Shown piece after piece: positions 52,579 to 61,312 of a DNA stretch of 64,000 nucleotides. This DNA comes from Sphingorhabdus sp. (GTDB lineage: Bacteria > Pseudomonadota > Alphaproteobacteria > Sphingomonadales > Sphingomonadaceae). Each line of letters begins with the position of its first letter. Position 1 is the first letter of the stretch. The stretch is taken from NCBI GenBank assembly GCA_023262005.1, contig JALREL010000174.1:1-64000 (forward strand). The letters run 5' to 3'. The position numbers and the translations under genes are program-made. The notes beneath the pieces were generated by a model that made no database searches, was not told the origin of the DNA, and saw only the letters and a list, made by a program, of their open reading frames with translations.

Positions 52579-54486
52579 ATGAGCAATCGTGCAGACACAG
52601 ATTTCGACGTTGTCGTTGTCGGCGGCGGACATGCAGGCGTGGAAGCAGCCACTGCTGCTGCCCGCATGGGTGTGCGCACGGCACTGGTCAGTTTCGCGCG
52701 CGACACAATCGGGGCAATGTCTTGCAACCCAGCCATAGGCGGGTTGGGCAAGGGGCACCTCGTCAAGGAAGTAGATGCCTTTGACGGCCTGATCGCCCGC
52801 GCGGCTGATGATGCGGCGATCCATTACCGGATGCTCAATGCCTCAAAAGGCGCGGCCGTGCAGGGTCCGCGTATTCAGGCAGACCGCAAGTTGTTCAAGG
52901 CATCGATCCACCGGCAGGTGGCAGCGACCGAAAATCTGACCATCATTGAAGGCGAGGCCGCCGCAATGCGTTTCGCATCGGGCGCTGAACGCAAGGTCAA
53001 CGGCCTGGAGCTTGCTGATGGCACGATACTGGGTGCCAATGCAGTGATCCTGTGCACCGGCACATTTCTGGGCGGAACCTTGTTCCGCGGGGAAGAGCGG
53101 CTGACCGGCGGCCGGATCGGAGAGCAAAGCGCGATGAAGCTCGCGCAGCAGATTCGTGGGGCGGCCTTGCCCATGGCGCGCCTGAAGACGGGGACACCTC
53201 CCAGGTTGGATGGTCGGACGATCAATTGGGCGGTGCTGGAAGAGCAGCCATCTGATGGCGGAAGCTGGACCATGTCCGCTATGACGCCTGCCCGCCACGT
53301 GCCGCAGCTCTTTTGCGCGATAACCCGCACCAACGCGCAGACACATGAAATCATCCGTGGTGGCCTTGATCGCTCCCCGCTATTTGGCGGAGCAATTCAG
53401 GGGCAGGGGCCGCGCTATTGCCCATCGATCGAAGACAAGATTTTCCGCTTTGGTGACCGCGAAGGTCACCAGGTTTTTCTTGAGCCCGAAGGGCTGGATA
53501 GCCACCTCATTTATCCCAATGGTATCTCGACATCGTTGCCAACCGACGTGCAGCTTGCGATGGTTCGTTCGATGCCGGGGCTCGAAGCTGTGGAGATGGT
53601 GGTTCCTGGTTACGCTGTCGAGTATGACTATATCGATCCGCGCGCCCTCGATCGCACATTGAAAGTACGGGAGTTGGAGGGGCTATACTGCGCCGGACAG
53701 ATCAATGGCACCACGGGTTATGAAGAAGCGGCGGCCCAAGGGCTGGTAGCAGGAATGGGCGCCGCCAGTGCCATTCTCGGCCAGGAAATGCCCGCACTCG
53801 ATCGATCGAACAGCTACATTGCCGTGATGGTTGATGACCTTGTCTTGCACGGGGTGACCGAACCCTATCGCATGCTGACCGCGCGCGCCGAATACCGTCT
53901 CCGCCTGCGGGCGGACAATGCCGCAACTCGGCTGACGCCTTTGGGCATTGCTGCAAATGTTGTAGGCGCTGAACGGCGTAAGCATTTCGAAGCCAAGGCA
54001 GCCGAAAAGGCTGCGTTACTCGACGCCATCCAGCATGCAGCAACCGCGGAGCAGTTGATCCGGGCAGGCGTTCCGGTGAAGCGCGATTCAGGAAAAATGG
54101 CGCTGATTGAATGGTTGCGTTTCCCCGACGTCCAACTGGCCGACCTGCTCGACTTGATTCCCACCGAATCTGTTTCACGTGAAACAAGAGGCGAATGGTC
54201 GACCGATGTTGTTGCAGAGGCTGAGCAAGACGGTCGTTATGCGCCTTATGTCGACCGGCAGGCCGCCGAACTGCGCGATCTCGCCGCAAATGAGCAGATC
54301 CGTATTCCCGACGCGTTGGATTATCGAAGAATAGCTGGACTCTCTAACGAGATGGTCGAGCGCCTCGATAGCGCACGGCCAGAGACACTTGCCGCAGCTA
54401 GTCGAATCAGGGGTATCACTCCGGCTGCACTGGCCGCCATACTCGTCCATGCCAAGCGCGCCCGTGGCGACAAGCAGGCGGCATGA
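52579..54486 (+). CDS. mnmG: tRNA uridine-34 carboxymethylaminomethyl synthase MnmG
   Basis: 635 residues, normal. FAD-binding [21 protein letters not shown], then [28 protein letters not shown] and [13 protein letters not shown]-terminal helical tail [12 protein letters not shown]-type. Works with MnmE. A perfect parS lies inside the 3' half of the gene (54171-54186). Stop overlaps rsmG by ATGA. Confidence 0.95.
54171..54186. promoter_or_regulatory. parS site 2 (perfect consensus)
   Basis: TGTTTCACGTGAAACA lies inside mnmG, coding as SVSRET. It is an exact match to the parS sequence bound by ParB. Confidence 0.95.
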
Positions 54487-55163
54487 CCGAAGATGATGCG
54501 CAAAAATGGCTGGCAGAGCATTTCGATGTTTCACGTGAAACATGGTCAAAGCTCGAAGCCTTTATCGAGTTCCTCAAAGCCGAAGCGCAGCAGCAGAACC
54601 TGATCTCGGCTTCGACAATGGAACATGTCTGGACGCGGCATATCGTCGACAGCGCGCAATTGTTACAATTTGCGCCATCCGAGCCTGCAAATTGGATCGA
54701 CCTTGGCTCAGGCGCGGGCTTTCCGGGATTGGTTATCGCGTTACTCAGCGACTGGCACGTCACGCTTGTCGAATCGCGCGCCAAGCGAATCGACTATCTG
54801 AACCGCGCCATCGCACAGTTGCGCCTCGAATCCCGCGTAAACGTCGCTGGAATGCCGGTTGAGCGTGTCGAGACGCAGAAATTTGCGGTCATTAGCGCGC
54901 GTGCGTTCGCACCTCTCCCCAAATTGCTCGACTTATCCGCGCGATTTTCCACAGATAAGACAATATGGCTGCTGCCAAAGGGTCGAAATGCGGTTAATGA
55001 ACTTGAGGAAGCCCGCAAGGCATGGGAACTTGATTTTTCGGTCCAACCTAGCGTGACCGACCCTGAAGCAGGGATTTTGACAGGCACTGTGCGCGAACCC
55101 AGGCAAATTCCGCCCAAAAAGGCGAAATCCAGGGTGTTGGCGAAAGGACGGCGGAAGAAATGA
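54483..55163 (+). CDS. rsmG: 16S rRNA (guanine-527-N7)-methyltransferase RsmG
   Basis: 226 residues. Methylates 16S rRNA G527. SAM motif [18 protein letters not shown] and [18 protein letters not shown], then [17 protein letters not shown] parS site falls in the start of the gene. ATGA overlaps link it to mnmG and parA. Confidence 0.94.
54527..54542. promoter_or_regulatory. parS site 3 (perfect consensus)
   Basis: TGTTTCACGTGAAACA within the 5' end of rsmG, with one further matching base on each side (18-bp palindrome). 340 bases from site 2. Confidence 0.95.
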
Positions 55164-55939
55164 TTCGGATCGCCATAGCGAACCAGAAAGGCGGCGTCGG
55201 AAAGACGACGACGGCCATTAACCTTGCCACCGCGCTCGCCGCCTGCGGCCGCCGCTGCCTGCTGATCGACCTCGACCCGCAGGGAAACGCATCGACCGGG
55301 CTTGGCGTGAAAACCGCAGACCGCGAATATAGCAGTTATGATCTGCTGATGGGCGATGCGAAACTCGTAGATGCCGTCTCTGGAACGATGATTCCTGGCC
55401 TCGATATCCTGCCTGCAACCGTAGACCTGTCGGGTGCGGAGGTCGAGCTGGTTGATCATGCTGATCGCGCCCACAAGCTTCAAAAGGCTCTGGCCGAAGA
55501 GGAGGCACGCTGGGATGTGTGCCTGATCGATTGTCCGCCATCGCTGGGCATGCTGACGATCAACGCGCTGGTTGCTGCGGATTCTATCCTCGTGCCCTTG
55601 CAATGTGAATTTTTCGCGTTGGAAGGATTAAGTCAGCTTTTACAAACAGTTGAACGCATCCAGAACCGTTTCAATCCGTCCCTCTCGATCCTGGGCGTGG
55701 CTTTGACGATGTTCGACCGGCGTAACCGCCTGACCGACCAGGTGGCGGAAGATGTTCGCTCTTGCCTTGGGAATTTGGTGTTCGAAACGGTTATTCCCCG
55801 CAATGTTCGCTTGTCCGAGGCTCCCAGCCACGGACTGCCGGCCTTGATTTATGATCATCGCTGCAGCGGTTCCGAAGCCTATATGAACCTCGCGCGCGAG
55901 TTGCTTGCGCGGTTGCCCGCACGGGAGATGGCGGCATGA
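55160..55939 (+). CDS. parA: Chromosome-partitioning ATPase ParA
   Basis: 259 residues. Deviant Walker A NQKGGVGKTTTAINLA at residues 8-23, Walker A' LIDLDPQGNAS, and Walker B VCLIDCPPSLGMLT. ATP-dependent DNA-bound ParA pulls ParB-parS complexes. No N-terminal helix-turn-helix, the chromosomal (type Ib-like) form. Overlaps rsmG and parB by ATGA. Confidence 0.96.
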   Translation: MIRIAIANQKGGVGKTTTAINLATALAACGRRCLLIDLDPQGNASTGLGVKTADREYSSYDLLMGDAKLVDAVSGTMIPGLDILPATVDLSGAEVELVDHADRAHKLQKALAEEEARWDVCLIDCPPSLGMLTINALVAADSILVPLQCEFFALEGLSQLLQTVERIQNRFNPSLSILGVALTMFDRRNRLTDQVAEDVRSCLGNLVFETVIPRNVRLSEAPSHGLPALIYDHRCSGSEAYMNLARELLARLPAREMAA

Positions 55940-56877
55940 GCGAAGGTGACAAGCCGCAACGCAAGAAAATGGGGTTGGGCAGGGGGCTTGATGCCTTGCT
56001 GGGCGAAGTGTCGCTTGATCGCTCGGCCAGTCGAGTGGCCGGTGGTGGCGAGGCGCCTTCAAGCGCGGCTTCATCATCGTCCGAAGGTGTGGTGTCGATC
56101 GCGATTGCCGACATCCACCCCAACCCGGCACAGCCGCGCCGGCATTTCAGCGAGGAATCGCTCCAGGAACTCGCCGCCAGCCTCAAACGGCATGGTCTGA
56201 TCCAACCGATTCTGGTCCGCCCGCATGGCGGCGGCTATCAAATCGTAGCAGGTGAACGGCGCTGGCGCGCTGCGCAGCGGGCGCAATTGCACCAGGTCAA
56301 GGCTATCGTTCGCGAGCTGTCGGACGAGGAAACGCTCGAAATTGCGCTGATTGAGAATATCCAGCGTCAGGATCTAAACCCGATCGAAGAGGCAGAGGCC
56401 TATCGCAAGCTGTGCGATGATTTCGGCCACAGCCAAAGCGAGTTGGCCGCCATCGTCGAGAAATCGCGCAGCCATGTGGCTAATATGATGCGCCTGCTCG
56501 AATTGCCGCTTCTGGTTCGCGAGATGGTGATCGAAGGCAAATTGTCGATGGGCCATGCTCGCGCCTTGCTGGGCAGCGACGACAGCGCGCGTTTGGCCGC
56601 AGTCGTTGTCAAGCAAGGCCTTTCCGTCCGCCAAACCGAAGCTCTTGTTCGCCGGTCGCGTGTAGAGGAGGGCAAGGCACCGAAGCCGCGCGTGACCGAA
56701 GCGACAGCGAGTGACGCCGATATTCGTGCTGTCGAACAGCACCTGGGGGACCTGTTGGGCCTGCGGGTAAAGATAGCACATAAAGGTGCTGGAGGCGCAG
56801 GAGCGGTTACCTTTGAGTATCGCAGCCTCGACCAGCTGGACATGCTGTGCCAGCGTCTAACCGGCGAGCAGTTCTAA
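55936..56877 (+). CDS. parB: Chromosome-partitioning protein ParB
   Basis: 313 residues. Starts GLGRGLDALLGE (ParA-contact region); CTPase domain with IHPNPAQPRRHFSEESLQELAAS and GERRWRAAQRA (C-motif with GxxR); ENIQRQDLNPIEEAEAYRKL and the helix-turn-helix GHSQSELAAIVEKSRSHVANMMRLLELP for parS; C-terminal dimer end. Binds the three parS sites seen upstream. Operon end. Confidence 0.96.
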   Translation: MSEGDKPQRKKMGLGRGLDALLGEVSLDRSASRVAGGGEAPSSAASSSSEGVVSIAIADIHPNPAQPRRHFSEESLQELAASLKRHGLIQPILVRPHGGGYQIVAGERRWRAAQRAQLHQVKAIVRELSDEETLEIALIENIQRQDLNPIEEAEAYRKLCDDFGHSQSELAAIVEKSRSHVANMMRLLELPLLVREMVIEGKLSMGHARALLGSDDSARLAAVVVKQGLSVRQTEALVRRSRVEEGKAPKPRVTEATASDADIRAVEQHLGDLLGLRVKIAHKGAGGAGAVTFEYRSLDQLDMLCQRLTGEQF

Positions 56878-57084: not shown

Positions 57085-57588
57085 ATGATCAACAAGATGA
57101 AGCTTGCGCTTGCTGGCGCAGTTATCGCTACCGGCATGGTTTCGAATGCCGCTTACGCTGCCACTGAACAGGCTGACGCAACCGTCCAGGTTCTTGCAGC
57201 TGTCCAGCTTTCGGCTGTTACCGACTTGAACTTCGGCGTTGTCGCTGCCTCGGCTGCCGGTGGCACTGTAACTTTGGGTGCTGCATCGGGCGCAACCCCG
57301 TCGGCTACCGGTGTTATCGCCATCAGCGGCGGTGCTCCAGCCAGCTTCCAGGTAACGCAGGCAACCACGGGCGAAGTGATCGCGCTTTCGGTCGGCAACC
57401 CGACCCCGCTGTCGAACGGCGTTGGTGCCGATATCGCACTGTCGGGCCTGACGCTGTCGAACAGCTCCATCACCTTCAACTCGGCCTCGTTGCAGACCGT
57501 GTATGTTGGTGGCACGATCTCGCTCAACCCGAACCAGGCAGCGGGCACCTATACCGGTACCTTCGACGTTACCGCTGAATATCAATAA
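57085..57588 (+). CDS. DUF4402 secreted fibre-subunit-like protein
   Basis: 167 residues. AAGGGA precedes the ATG; signal peptide (LALAGAVIATGMVSNAAYA) ends in AYA. The mature part is one beta-sandwich typical of DUF4402 (TVQVLAAVQLSAVTDLNFGVVAA ... GTYTGTFDVTAEYQ at the end), with Ala, Thr and Ser abundant and no cysteine. DUF4402 proteins are pilin-like subunits found with PapD-type chaperones. Here a terminator follows, then a chaperone and an usher-like gene, so it may be the main subunit of a surface fibre. Confidence 0.88.
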   Translation: MINKMKLALAGAVIATGMVSNAAYAATEQADATVQVLAAVQLSAVTDLNFGVVAASAAGGTVTLGAASGATPSATGVIAISGGAPASFQVTQATTGEVIALSVGNPTPLSNGVGADIALSGLTLSNSSITFNSASLQTVYVGGTISLNPNQAAGTYTGTFDVTAEYQ

Positions 57589-57629
57589 GGACCAGTTCGC
57601 AGCTTTTACGCTGCTGTTGCACGGATTAA

Positions 57630-57659
57630 CCTCGGTGGCCCAGTGCCACCGGGGTTTTT
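57630..57659 (+). terminator. Intrinsic terminator after the DUF4402 gene
   Basis: CCTCGGTGGC and GCCACCGGGG form a 10-bp stem (one G-T pair) around 5 bases, followed by TTTTT. It would make the subunit transcript more abundant than the chaperone and usher genes downstream. Confidence 0.88.
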
Positions 57660-57761
57660 CTATACTCGCGATGCTATCGTTAGCAGCTTGGTAACCATGT
57701 CCTGTTAGTCCGAAATGGAGGGGTAGCCCTCCAAATTGGACCAGACAAGACAGGTATTGTG

Positions 57762-58592
57762 ATGAAAATTCTTCGGAATTTGGCGACCGCCATTGTGGGC
57801 GGGTTGGTCGCGATTTCGGCAGTTTGTGGCAGTGCCGCACATGCCGCAGGCGATCTGCTCGTAGCTCCGACACGAGTCATCCTCGATGGCAAACGCGGTA
57901 CACAGGTAATCCTCAACAATGTTGGTGCCGAGGAGATGACATATCGCATCTCGTTGGAAATCAAGCGCATGGGTCCGGATGGCCGGCTGGAGGATATCGA
58001 TCCTGCATCAACCACCGATGCCGAAAAGTCGGCTTTGTCGCTGGTGCGCTATGCGCCGCGCCGCGTTACCCTGCCGCCCAACCAGCCGCAGTCGATCCGG
58101 ATCGGGTTGAACCCGGCTGACAGCCTTCCCGGCGGCGAATATCGCGTCCACATGCTGTTTCGCGCGATACCCAAGACACAGGGAGTCGGCGAAGAAACCA
58201 ACGCTAACGACCTGAAGATCCAGCTCATCCCGCTTTATGGCATCACAATCCCGATCATCGTTCGCAAAGGCAATCTGACCGCCACGGCAGCGTTGGCCAA
58301 TGCGCGGTTGGGACGCGATGAGGACGGCCCGGTTCTGGAAATCGATGCCACGCGAAAAGGCAACCGATCGGTCTATGGCGAGTTTCGCATTACCAAAGCC
58401 GGTCAGTCGCAACCTGTGATCGTGCAGAAAGGCATTGCGATTTACCCCGAGGTTGAAAAGCGCAAGGTGGAACTGGCGCTGAGCGACGCGGAAGCGGCAA
58501 CCATTCGCGGCAGCGAAGTGGTGATTGCCTATCACGAGTCACCGGAAAATGGCGGCGGGTTGATCGCCGAGCTTCGTACTGTGGTGCGCTGA
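57762..58592 (+). CDS. PapD-like periplasmic fimbrial chaperone
   Basis: 276 residues. ATG 57762 has CAGG 7-8 bases upstream. Signal peptide (ATAIVGGLVAISAVCGSAAHA), then an Ig-like domain: DLLVAPTRVILDGKRGTQVILNNVGAEEMTYRISL, ALSLVRYAPRRVTLPPNQPQSIRIGL and YRVHMLFRAIP, the PapD G1-strand pattern. A second Ig-like domain follows from ~150. It should hold DUF4402 subunits by strand complementation before export by the usher-like protein. Confidence 0.87.
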   Translation: MKILRNLATAIVGGLVAISAVCGSAAHAAGDLLVAPTRVILDGKRGTQVILNNVGAEEMTYRISLEIKRMGPDGRLEDIDPASTTDAEKSALSLVRYAPRRVTLPPNQPQSIRIGLNPADSLPGGEYRVHMLFRAIPKTQGVGEETNANDLKIQLIPLYGITIPIIVRKGNLTATAALANARLGRDEDGPVLEIDATRKGNRSVYGEFRITKAGQSQPVIVQKGIAIYPEVEKRKVELALSDAEAATIRGSEVVIAYHESPENGGGLIAELRTVVR

Positions 58593-58624
58593 GCAGGATA
58601 GCGCAGAGCCAAGCGGCAACCACG

Positions 58625-61312
58625 ATGAAGTCGATACTTTCCAAATTCTGCCAGGGCTTTGTTGCTCTTGCACTTGCCACCGGTGCCTTGCTGGCCCCGG
58701 TGGTTCCTGCATTTGCGCAGGCCGCCTGGAAAGCAAATGACGACGACCAACTGCTGCTTGATGTCAGAGCCGGTCGTTACCGTGTGGGTGATGGCGTGCG
58801 CGGATATCAGACCAATACTGGCGTGTGCATCGATTTTGCCGATTTGATCATCGCGCTCGACCTTCCCGTCCGCCTTGACAAAAAGTCGCGCCGCGCAACT
58901 GGCTGGTTGTTCGAAGAAAGCCGCACCTTCACCCTCGACCGCGAAGCTGGTAGAGTACAAATCATGAACAAAAGTTCGGCGCTTTCAGCGTCGGACGTAT
59001 ATGACACGCCGGAAGGCTGGTGCGTCGACACCAAAGCCTTGTCGCGTTGGCTCGATGTAACATTGGCGCCAGAGCTTTCCGAAGCCCTGCTCGTGATCAA
59101 GGCAGATCGCAAACTTCCCTTTGAACTGGCCGAGGAGCGTAAGGAGCGCGCGGCCAAATCGCGGCCGATAGCGACCTTTGACCTGCGCAACCTGCCCCAG
59201 GCCAAGGATGCCTATCGTTTCTGGCGCACGCCCTCGGTCGACGTCGTGGCGTCAACCGGGATTAGTCGCGAAAGCAACGGCCGGGCCAAGGCCAATGCGA
59301 GTTATGACCTGTTCGCCAGCGGAGAAATTGCAGGGGCATCGTTCGATGCGCGCCTCACGTCCAACGAACGCGGCGTCCCGGAAAGTTTCCGCGTGCGCGC
59401 CTATCGGACAAGCGCAGAAGGTGAATTGCTGGGCCCATTCAAGGCTACGCATTTCGGAATTGGCGATGTCAGCCTGCCCGCTTCGTTCGTGGGCAGCCAA
59501 TCGACGCCCGGTCGCGGGCTTTTCGTCACCAATCGGCCTTTATCGCGTCCCGACAATTTTGATCGCACCAGCTTCCGCGGTGAACTTCCCGAAGGCTGGG
59601 ATGCCGAACTCTATCGTAACGACCAGCTGATCGGCTACTTTCAGAGCCGCGGCGATGGCCGTTACGAATTCCTCGATGTTCCGCTGCTTTACGGGCAGAA
59701 CCGGATCGAGGTCGTGCTTTATGGACCACAAGGGCAGATCCGCCGCGATGTGCGGATGATACCCGTTGGCGCGAATTCGATACCGCCGAGGGAAACCTAT
59801 TATTGGGCCGGGGTCCAGGACGCCGGGCGCGACCTGTTCAACTTCGGCGACAGCGACGATCGGCCTTATAACGGTTTACGCGGTGGTTTTGGAATCGAGC
59901 GCGGGCTTGATGCCAAGACGTCAATCGGCGCCGCGGTTATCAGCGCGATCTATGAAGGGGCACGTCAAAGCTATGCCGAGGCAATGATCCGTCGCGCCAT
60001 GGGCCCGACACTGGTCGAAGTGGCGGGTGCGGCAGATATTGATGGTGGTTATGCGGTCCGCGGCCAGATGCTGGGCCAGTTCGGAGATGCAATGGTGGGT
60101 GCACAAACGCTTTGGCTGTTCGGGGGCTTCCGCAGCGAGCAATATGTTGCCGGTTTGCGTGCCGAACATGCAATCTCCATCGATCACAGCCTGAAAATCG
60201 GTACGAAGAGCGTGCCTTATGGCGTGAGCGCGACCTATCGCAAATGGCTCAACGGCAATAGCTCGGTCGAAGCCAAGGCGCGATTATCATTTAATATCAA
60301 TAACATAACTGCATCCACAGACCTGATCTGGGAACAGATGAAATTCGCATTTGGCAGCGATCCTCCACACAAGCTGGATGCACAGTTGCGGCTTAGCGGA
60401 CGTGTGGGCGGATTGCGCCTGCGCGGCGAGGCGCGCTTTGGCATCATGGGTGATAAGGGTTTCAAGGAATCGCGCATCACCGGTGAATGGCGTGCAGATG
60501 AAAAGGCAAATTGGCGAGCTGAACTCGGCTATGATGCGCTCAACAAGCGTGGCCGGGCGACTTTTGGCTATACCCGCCATTTCGAGAAATTTGCCCTTTC
60601 GGGGCAAGTGATGGGGGCGACCGACGGTGCGGTTGCCGCGCAACTGAGTGTTGCCTTCAGCATGGGCCCCAACCCGCATGGCAAGGGTTTCCACATGTCG
60701 TCGCAAAAGCTTGCATCGAGCGGACAGGCAGCCGTACTCGTCTACCAGGATCTGAACGCAGATGGCATCCGGCAGCCCAATGAACCTGTTGAAAAATCAG
60801 TGGAAATTACCGCTGGGTTGAATGGCCGCGGCAAAGCGACCGATGAACGCGGGCAAACCGTCATTGGCGGGCTTGAGCCCTATGTGCCGATCCTGATCGG
60901 CATCGATGCGGGCAGCCTTCCCGATCCGTTCGTGCAACCTGCTACAAGTGGAGTGGTGGTTACCCCGCGGCCGGGTATTCCTATGATTGTCGAACTGCCG
61001 CTCGTCTCGGCCGGTGAAATCAGCGGTTACCTCATCAAAGAAGGTGGCCGGGCATTAACCGGGGTCGATATCGAACTCCTCGACAAGGCTGGCCGTGTCG
61101 TAAAGACCACGCGCGCCGAATATGACGGCTTCTTCCTGTTCGAAAGCGTGCCTTACGGCCAATATCGTATGCGCCTAAGTGCCGTTGCTGCCGGCATTGT
61201 CGGTGTGCAGCCGGATGTAAGCGTCGCCGCATCGCTTGATCGCAAGAACCCGACGGTCGATCTGGGGCAAATTGTGCTCAAACCTTCGCAGCGGATCGCC
61301 GCAAGCAACTAG
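58625..61312 (+). CDS. Usher-like outer-membrane protein with C-terminal Ig-like repeats
   Basis: 895 residues. Signal peptide to about residue 32. An N-terminal domain (~35-170) not recognised as the usual usher N-domain. A long barrel-type region (~190-680); its part PEGWDAELYRNDQLIGYFQSRG-type, then YEFLDVPLLYGQNRIEVVLYGPQGQ, resembles the plug-adjacent stretch of chaperone-usher proteins. The end (~690-895) has an SdrD/carboxypeptidase-regulatory-like Ig unit (VYQDLNADGIRQPNEP, then GYLIKEGGRALTGVDIELLDKAGR). It should form the export pore for the DUF4402 fibre. Non-classical usher; family placement is inferred. Confidence 0.72.
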   Translation: MKSILSKFCQGFVALALATGALLAPVVPAFAQAAWKANDDDQLLLDVRAGRYRVGDGVRGYQTNTGVCIDFADLIIALDLPVRLDKKSRRATGWLFEESRTFTLDREAGRVQIMNKSSALSASDVYDTPEGWCVDTKALSRWLDVTLAPELSEALLVIKADRKLPFELAEERKERAAKSRPIATFDLRNLPQAKDAYRFWRTPSVDVVASTGISRESNGRAKANASYDLFASGEIAGASFDARLTSNERGVPESFRVRAYRTSAEGELLGPFKATHFGIGDVSLPASFVGSQSTPGRGLFVTNRPLSRPDNFDRTSFRGELPEGWDAELYRNDQLIGYFQSRGDGRYEFLDVPLLYGQNRIEVVLYGPQGQIRRDVRMIPVGANSIPPRETYYWAGVQDAGRDLFNFGDSDDRPYNGLRGGFGIERGLDAKTSIGAAVISAIYEGARQSYAEAMIRRAMGPTLVEVAGAADIDGGYAVRGQMLGQFGDAMVGAQTLWLFGGFRSEQYVAGLRAEHAISIDHSLKIGTKSVPYGVSATYRKWLNGNSSVEAKARLSFNINNITASTDLIWEQMKFAFGSDPPHKLDAQLRLSGRVGGLRLRGEARFGIMGDKGFKESRITGEWRADEKANWRAELGYDALNKRGRATFGYTRHFEKFALSGQVMGATDGAVAAQLSVAFSMGPNPHGKGFHMSSQKLASSGQAAVLVYQDLNADGIRQPNEPVEKSVEITAGLNGRGKATDERGQTVIGGLEPYVPILIGIDAGSLPDPFVQPATSGVVVTPRPGIPMIVELPLVSAGEISGYLIKEGGRALTGVDIELLDKAGRVVKTTRAEYDGFFLFESVPYGQYRMRLSAVAAGIVGVQPDVSVAASLDRKNPTVDLGQIVLKPSQRIAASN

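Follow-up and report, generated by a model that had tools for sequence, protein, structure and literature searches.

What kind of system is encoded by the three adjacent genes found at positions 57,085 to 61,312 of a contig of Sphingorhabdus sp. (JALREL010000174.1; Alphaproteobacteria)? The genes specify a subunit of the DUF4402 family (PF14352), a PapD-like chaperone and an 895-residue usher-like protein, and we analyzed them within a 64,000-nt stretch of the contig (hereafter, the window). The original prediction, made from the sequence alone, proposed a minimal and poorly described chaperone-usher branch. Our results support a poorly described branch, though not a minimal one: the cluster most probably encodes the core machinery that assembles a chaperone-usher pilus belonging to a deep, unnamed branch, with DUF4402 proteins as pilins and subunit genes dispersed in the genome.

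The source genome, from the Sphingorhabdus group, is unfinished (2.55 Mb in 234 contigs), and the named relatives of the usher at 86–89% identity are Sphingorhabdus or Sphingomonadaceae metagenome-assembled genomes (MAGs). The three genes were found together in all 21 related loci of one scan of genome contigs: chaperone and usher frames are adjacent, and the DUF4402 gene lies 5' of the chaperone gene (20/21 by phmmer; the last, L047, by profile).

Identification of the usher

Scans of the 895-residue protein with Pfam and NCBIfam recovered no usher family: PF00577 was without match even at E ≤ 10, and neither PapC_C nor TcfC (PF16967) was matched, TcfC being absent from the source genome as well. 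As originally predicted, the matches obtained (SdrD_B above its cut-off and CarboxypepD_reg below it) lie at the C-terminal end. Sequence and profile searches of the Protein Data Bank (PDB) with the usher or the chaperone returned SdrD-like and other weak matches only, and no usher or pilus chaperone. Comparisons of single sequences were weak (FimD, 1.0%; EcpC, 24.8%) and were superseded by profile comparisons. An alignment of 57 relatives was compared, using hhalign, with three small sets of reference ushers drawn using PF00577 and PF16967 (15, 11 and 11 sequences, the 15 being archaic-type). The archaic label of these 15 sequences is based on low PF00577 scores and on a spore-coat-U (SCPU) match in the chosen neighboring frame at 4/10 loci. 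The profile matched the archaic-type ushers at 99.3% (E = 1.1e-20) over 726 collinear columns (query 117–897 to 102–847), the alternative ushers at 97.6% and the classical ushers at 97.0%. Controls yielded 5.2% for 24 LptD barrel proteins and 1.2%, 9.4% and 5.2% for the reversed archaic, classical and alternative sets, respectively. The middle and C-terminal parts each matched separately, and the N-terminal part did not (0.1–0.4%). The C-terminal part alone reached 96.0% with archaic-type ushers (E = 4e-9), 64.6% with classical ushers, 50.3% with alternative ushers and 0.2% with LptD. By profile, the SdrD/carboxypeptidase-like end is an usher C-domain, contrary to the earlier view that no usher C-domain was evident. 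A search across the phylum also made weak contact with frames of 842–864 aa in four genomes of another family (f54); the two that were checked are PF00577 ushers.

A single-sequence AlphaFold model of the usher was useless (predicted local confidence, pLDDT, of 33.8). Rerun with the 57-sequence alignment, AlphaFold2 (AF2) produced a model with a pLDDT of 83.2 and a predicted template-modelling score (pTM) of 0.64, in which DSSP assigned 24 barrel strands (6 + 18) with a plug after strand 6. The plug contains six strands modeled at a confidence below that of the barrel, and it aligns with the corresponding part of archaic-type ushers. In a Foldseek search of the PDB, ranks 1–18 were all FimD or PapC chains (best E = 1.0e-28). 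VIA-align placed FimD at Z = 20.5 (root-mean-square deviation, rmsd, of 8.7; 553 aligned), with the first non-usher at Z = 15.2, and the FimD pore alone at Z = 20.0 (rmsd 5.2; 381 aligned; model residues 202–680). In the 15 usher rows, the aligned ranges begin at residues 179–203, so that this result bears only on the part after the N-domain. The 24-strand barrel and plug that the original prediction had proposed as a check were recovered in the predicted model. These computations identify the protein as an usher in its barrel, plug and C-domains.

The N-terminal domain matches no known usher N-domain by sequence, and this part of the earlier description stands. It scored at most 9.1% against known usher N-domains, a weak test because alternative and classical N-domains score just 0.3% against each other. 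In known ushers, this domain takes in chaperone-subunit complexes. When the domain is divided at a hand-chosen split point, its two halves resemble each other (hhalign 75.8%, E = 2.3e-5; 33 columns). A copper-amine-oxidase identity was rejected, as Cu_amine_oxidN1 (PF07833) was found in 1/35 members only (E = 0.0026) and no PDB relative was found; a Cu_amine_oxidN1-like domain is possible as a lead only. Dehyd-heme_bind weakly matched four of the 35 members (best 0.038).

C-domain 1 also contains a D-x-N-x-D-G...E loop that corresponds to a gap in the archaic-type alignment. Its residues are conserved among the 57 sequences (D709 in 57, N711 in 47, D713 in 44, G714 in 52 and E720 in 51). The calcium sites of SdrD-like repeats resemble this loop, which may bind metal.

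Some members of the usher family depart from this organization. Three distant ones, L083 (943–4527), L024 and L047, have a longer C-terminus, which in L083 includes a SPOR-like stretch (20.7 bits against a cut-off of 21.0) that would tie the usher to peptidoglycan; no such match was reported for L024 or L047. At L261 5326–11499 (G171), only profile positions 28–561 are matched, within an open frame of 3607 aa in which Pfam found no match over the 2058 aa examined; this gene is either broken or fused. Finally, the usher gene is interrupted by an in-frame TAG in G238 (L068) and split into two adjacent frames in a MAG locus (L041 6899–9661).

An archaic-type first domain in the chaperone

On the 277-aa protein, PapD_N was matched below its cut-off (0.023), and seven of the 21 members matched at E ≤ 1 (best 1.6e-5). 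Comparisons of single sequences were again weak (FimC, 4.5%; EcpB, 0.3%; EcpE, 46%) and superseded by profiles. When archaic-type usher loci were searched with the chaperone profile, the frames adjoining the ushers ranked first. Among the 14 best open reading frames (ORFs), 12 exceeded the PapD_N cut-off, one (L144) was below it and one (L138) was unmatched. The references were selected by position and by rank with our own profile, and Pfam confirms 11 of the 13 used. Against these 13 archaic-type chaperones the profile reached 98.2% (E = 3e-14; reversed control, 0.2%) over domain 1 only, which bears out the PapD-like chaperone of the original prediction.

N54, P100, Y128-R129 and P165 align with columns that are conserved among archaic-type chaperones. 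P100 is present in 21/21 members and its column is proline in 13/13 archaic-type chaperones: the proline of the superfamily is present. R129 is found in 20/21 members and the aligned YR column is arginine in 12/13 (the counterpart of CsuC Arg89). In a very weak alignment, P100 and R129 match EcpB positions that we take to be Pro60 and Arg89. According to PMC4654587, nothing characterizes archaic and alternative chaperones more than this arginine. In the unaligned domain 2, R199 (21/21) and Y229 (20/21) are candidates only for the CsuC anchors Arg174 and Tyr196. R39 (21/21) aligns weakly with the FimC residue that we take to be Arg8. Together with the archaic-type P100 and R129, it suggests that the chaperone may mix traits. 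The alignment with FimC ends before the position of the chaperone lysine, K112 in FimC/PapD; by eye, that place is occupied by the invariant P165. Overall, the profile comparison indicates that the first domain of this protein is that of an archaic-type chaperone.

DUF4402 proteins carry a pilin-like strand and accompany the usher

The DUF4402 subunit of the original prediction was confirmed by its Pfam match. A glycine at position −14 combined with a tyrosine or phenylalanine at −2 was found in 104 of 110 distinct DUF4402-like C-termini, versus 18 of 3863 other ORFs of the same loci (the latter were called mechanically and many are not real genes). In pilins, Gly −14 and an aromatic residue at −2 form the chaperone-recognition motif. 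The same residues occur in FimA, FimF, FimG and FimH, and not in EcpA.

We then compared the distribution of the two families across 296 genomes of the order. Usher and DUF4402 co-occurred in 88 genomes, one genome had the usher only (G167), none had DUF4402 only and 207 had neither. DUF4402 matches above the cut-off were present in 88/89 usher-positive and 0/207 usher-negative genomes. Seven genomes whose usher-profile matches were under 27 bits and limited to the C-terminal end were counted as usher-negative, and G008, with a 24-residue DUF4402 match below the cut-off, as DUF4402-negative. Usher-positive genomes have a median of four DUF4402 genes (at least three in 81/89 and one only in four). 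Fisher values computed from these counts take no account of relatedness among the genomes, but both usher states exist within at least eight genera (g1, g23, g24, g25, g28, g36, g37 and g39), and DUF4402 follows the usher in each of them with the exception of G167 (g39). DUF4402 proteins are phyletic partners of the usher and bear a pilin-like C-terminal strand.

The source genome (G000) contains one usher and four DUF4402 genes, three of which are located on two other contigs. We found no further subunit gene adjoining the window cluster, as originally claimed, but the three additional genes speak against the broader claim that minor subunits are lacking. A tree of 75 sequences of the genus groups the 19 cluster genes (class A), 17 class C genes and the genes of a tandem pair (B1/B2), with a partial frame and three other single genes in addition; not every genome in the tree has both B genes or a fetched class C gene. 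Most of the genes thus belong to orthologous classes that occupy three fixed, unlinked addresses: parB, ABC/TldD and HolA/MsrB. B loci have an ABC-transporter homologue alongside in 20/20 cases and TldD in 10/20 (flanks are short), and C loci have homologues of HolA, LptE and/or MsrB alongside in 17/17. Distances between the usher and the dispersed genes, measured in three single-contig genomes, range from 37 to 632 kb. In other genera, 11 of 14 regions with dispersed genes have the ABC homologue, nine of them with TldD, and L274 has MsrB.

Within the genus, 19 of 37 genomes are usher-positive, and all 19 present 3–6 DUF4402 matches. Among the 18 usher-negative congeners, only G023 has DUF4402 genes above the cut-off. 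In this genome, of 86% completeness, the class C gene is in place but the parB ortholog, beside which the usher would be expected, is missing; parB is present in the 17 others, and the stretch around it, up to 1.5 kb per side, holds no subunit, chaperone or usher gene. The class C site is likewise empty in usher-negative congeners: HolA adjoins MsrB in 16/16 readable cases, excluding G023 and also G010, whose locus held another MsrB. Three usher-negative genomes, G008, G015 and G024 (L195, L196 and L197), contain a 31-aa frame matching the last 24 DUF4402 positions below the cut-off, possibly a remnant or a chance match.

In a compact lineage (g25, g28 and g44; usher frames of at least 1,206 aa), three subunit genes directly precede the chaperone and usher genes in 4/4 fetched regions. 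The most telling indication of a shared machine is that DUF4402 genes which are dispersed in one lineage have counterparts standing side by side in another. With this arrangement and the 3–6 matches per usher-positive congener, the term minimal does not fit the system. We rejected the first operon gene of the compact lineage as a two-domain adhesin: its frames of 276–280 aa run from stop to stop, and DUF4402 fills the part after the likely start.

In the 26 sequences viewed, classes A and B have a strand-like stretch following the signal peptide. In class C, this stretch is charged and often CxxC-bearing, and the first hydrophobic half is missing. Many class C subunits (L203–L222, L264 and L274) have a CxxC (CLLC, CRLC) directly after the signal peptide, which is absent in the source genome and in G001.

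Interpretation and alternatives

These results indicate, by computation, a genuine divergent chaperone-usher system. DUF4402 proteins would be exported by Sec, held by the chaperone through donor-strand complementation, passed to the usher and linked through donor-strand exchange to form a surface fibre. The main pilin would be encoded by the class A gene and probably made in excess, because a recurring terminator separates this gene from the chaperone and usher genes. The products of the unlinked classes B1, B2 and C may serve in the same fibre as minor subunits, at its tip or base or as adaptors; class C is perhaps terminal, since the hydrophobic first half is missing from its N-terminal strand. 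Assembly may be coupled to divalent cations by the calcium-like loop in C-domain 1. By analogy with the pathway, a role in adhesion or biofilm formation is presumed.

Several observations weigh against an assembly core with dispersed DUF4402 pilins. Profile comparison demonstrated no relation of the usher N-domain to known usher N-domains, chaperone domain 2 does not align with its archaic-type equivalent, and no two-domain adhesin was found in the loci that we looked at. G167 has an usher without DUF4402, and four usher-positive genomes have a single DUF4402 gene. Two of the 14 regions with dispersed genes (L264 and L266) show none of the known addresses, and the usher-negative congeners may reflect few loss events.

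The alternative that survives best, although we consider it unlikely, is that this is merely a fast-evolving archaic (sigma) system, with DUF4402 a drifted SCPU pilin and nothing new in kind. Archaic-type proteins are the closest to both usher and chaperone, the chaperone retains the archaic/alternative arginine, and the SCPU match to the window subunit is full-length. However, that match (E = 0.37) is the best of only two among 21 subunits, 19 of which match DUF4402, the usher has no PF00577 match, and the C-terminal Gly −14/Tyr −2 spacing of the subunits is that of FimA/F/G/H. Moreover, the usher family scores 188 against archaic-type ushers, which equals the score between alternative and archaic ushers (185), versus 400 between archaic and classical and 116 between alternative and classical; these scores are a rough distance only, because they depend on alignment depth and the sets are small. 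The best reading of these profiles is that the window usher family is about as distant from archaic ushers as the alternative branch is.

It is improbable that the cluster encodes a three-gene, one-subunit fibre like that of Caf1-type systems and that the other DUF4402 genes are unrelated paralogues. A single subunit gene was detected in the cluster of Sphingorhabdus-type loci, but the other genes are missing where the usher is missing, with one explained exception (G023), are orthologous and syntenic, and in another lineage lie within the same gene cluster. We similarly give little credit to an usher that, instead of building a polymer, exports DUF4402 proteins that are secreted free or bound to the surface: the N-domain is unlike that of known ushers and the fibre itself is a prediction from the genes, but there are several subunit classes per usher, and a pilin-type C-terminal strand with a dedicated chaperone implies an incomplete fold completed in trans.

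An assembly core of a deep, unnamed branch remains our preferred interpretation. A bolder proposal, which we regard as tentative and somewhat short of even, is a fourth major chaperone-usher class with the rank of classical, alternative and archaic. Its hallmarks would be an usher whose N-domain is duplicated and unrelated to known ones and whose C-domain responds to calcium, a mixture of archaic and classical traits in chaperone and pilins, and subunit genes at three conserved addresses in the chromosome, with separate promoters thereby setting the fibre composition. In the literature searched, which leaves most subscription journals outside its coverage, we found neither a description of this system nor a published function for DUF4402 or PF14352. 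If our interpretation is correct, DUF4402 would gain a function, as would a protein that Pfam and NCBIfam recognize at most by its SdrD-like end, and a well-studied secretion pathway would acquire a deep branch. About 30% of the genomes sampled from the order (89/296) would then specify a surface fibre. Scattered subunit genes whose presence and absence follow a single usher provide a clean way to test how genes that are unlinked remain part of the same machine.

Organization of the cluster and its surroundings

The predicted strong terminator (Table 1) recurs: a T-run together with a stem at or below −21 kcal/mol was found 28–50 nt past the subunit stop codon in 15/16 relative loci, L036 being the one without (by eye, the 16 represent about 11 distinct loci). 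The same scan found 0/80 in mononucleotide shuffles, 4/95 in windows inside usher genes and 0/16 at chaperone/usher junctions. Stem sequences vary from locus to locus. Across the region, terminator-like sites are not above chance (four found versus 5.2 expected). The recurring terminator fits the subunit excess proposed originally.

The cluster lies between genes that we take to be gidB-parA-parB and an esterase gene. Homologues of gidB, parA and parB were found near the cluster in 18/21 loci; L029, a short contig, has parB alone, and L043 and L047, from outside the order, have none of them. In the window, presumed mnmG-gidB-parA-parB genes (52579–56877) precede the cluster. These genes are often close to the replication origin, and the dosage of the main subunit gene may therefore be high. 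An Rfam search of the cluster gave no match and no sigma-70-like promoter was found there. In Roseospirillum (L043, 4512–5671 and 14876–16197), two DUF4402-like genes are upstream of the chaperone and usher genes and two more about 5 kb downstream.

Table 1. Coordinates of the cluster features in the window
Feature	Position	Strand	Basis
DUF4402 subunit of class A (167 aa, presumed main pilin), with a strand-like N-terminus after the signal peptide (ATEQADATVQVLAAVQLS)	57085..57588	+	Pfam PF14352, E 6.8e-19
C-terminal 14-residue strand GTYTGTFDVTAEYQ (Gly −14, Tyr −2)	57544..57585	+	C-terminus comparison
Intrinsic terminator between subunit and chaperone genes	57628..57666	+	12-pair stem, −21.3 kcal/mol; stem-loop and T-run 57628–57656
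Periplasmic chaperone, 277 aa	57759..58592	+	GTG start (ATG at 57762 equally likely); hhalign to archaic-type chaperones
Usher, 895 aa	58625..61312	+	hhalign 99.3% to archaic-type ushers; AF2 model; Foldseek FimD E 1e-28
Usher N-terminal domain (residues 36–166), two similar halves	58730..59122	+	hhalign of halves
Predicted barrel strands 1–6 (residues 200–302)	59222..59530	+	AF2/DSSP
Predicted plug domain (residues 314–381), motif DGRYEFLDVPLLYGQN...LYGPQGQ	59564..59767	+	AF2/DSSP
Predicted barrel strands 7–24 (residues 391–682)	59795..60670	+	AF2/DSSP, 18 strands
Usher C-domain 1 (~residues 690–794)	60692..61006	+	C part versus archaic-type ushers, hhalign
D-x-N-x-D-G...E loop (residues 709–720), calcium-site-like insert in C-domain 1	60749..60784	+	Conservation, 57 sequences
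Usher C-domain 2 (~residues 795–886)	61007..61282	+	Part matched by Pfam SdrD_B/CarboxypepD_reg

Comparison with known chaperone-usher systems

We did not file the system as archaic, alternative or classical, because a defining feature tested for each of them was not found here. The archaic (sigma) pathway is that of Csu-type pili (PMC4654587, PMC9452303). It provides the closest usher and chaperone profiles, and the chaperone has a proline and an arginine of the kind described for CsuC/EcpB in PMC4654587. In contrast, the window usher has no PF00577 match, a different N-domain and the extra D-x-N-x-D-G loop; DUF4402 replaces SCPU subunits, no two-domain adhesin was seen and the subunit genes are dispersed.

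The alternative (alpha) pathway (EcpC/EcpB/EcpE, CFA-type) resembles the system in its usher, which is weakly collinear with EcpC over 501 columns (24.8%) and matches the alternative profile at 97.6%, and through EcpE (46%). It differs in that the window usher has no TcfC domain and that the subunit C-terminus is unlike EcpA.

With the classical pathway (type 1/P pili, FimD/PapC), the predicted model shares the barrel, the plug after strand 6 and the C-domains, following the strand count of FimD and the layout of known ushers. The subunits share the C-terminal Gly −14/Tyr −2, and R39 of the chaperone aligns, weakly, with FimC Arg8, whereas neither the Usher nor the PapC_C family of Pfam matches the window usher. 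As for DUF4402 (PF14352), the window subunit belongs to the family itself.

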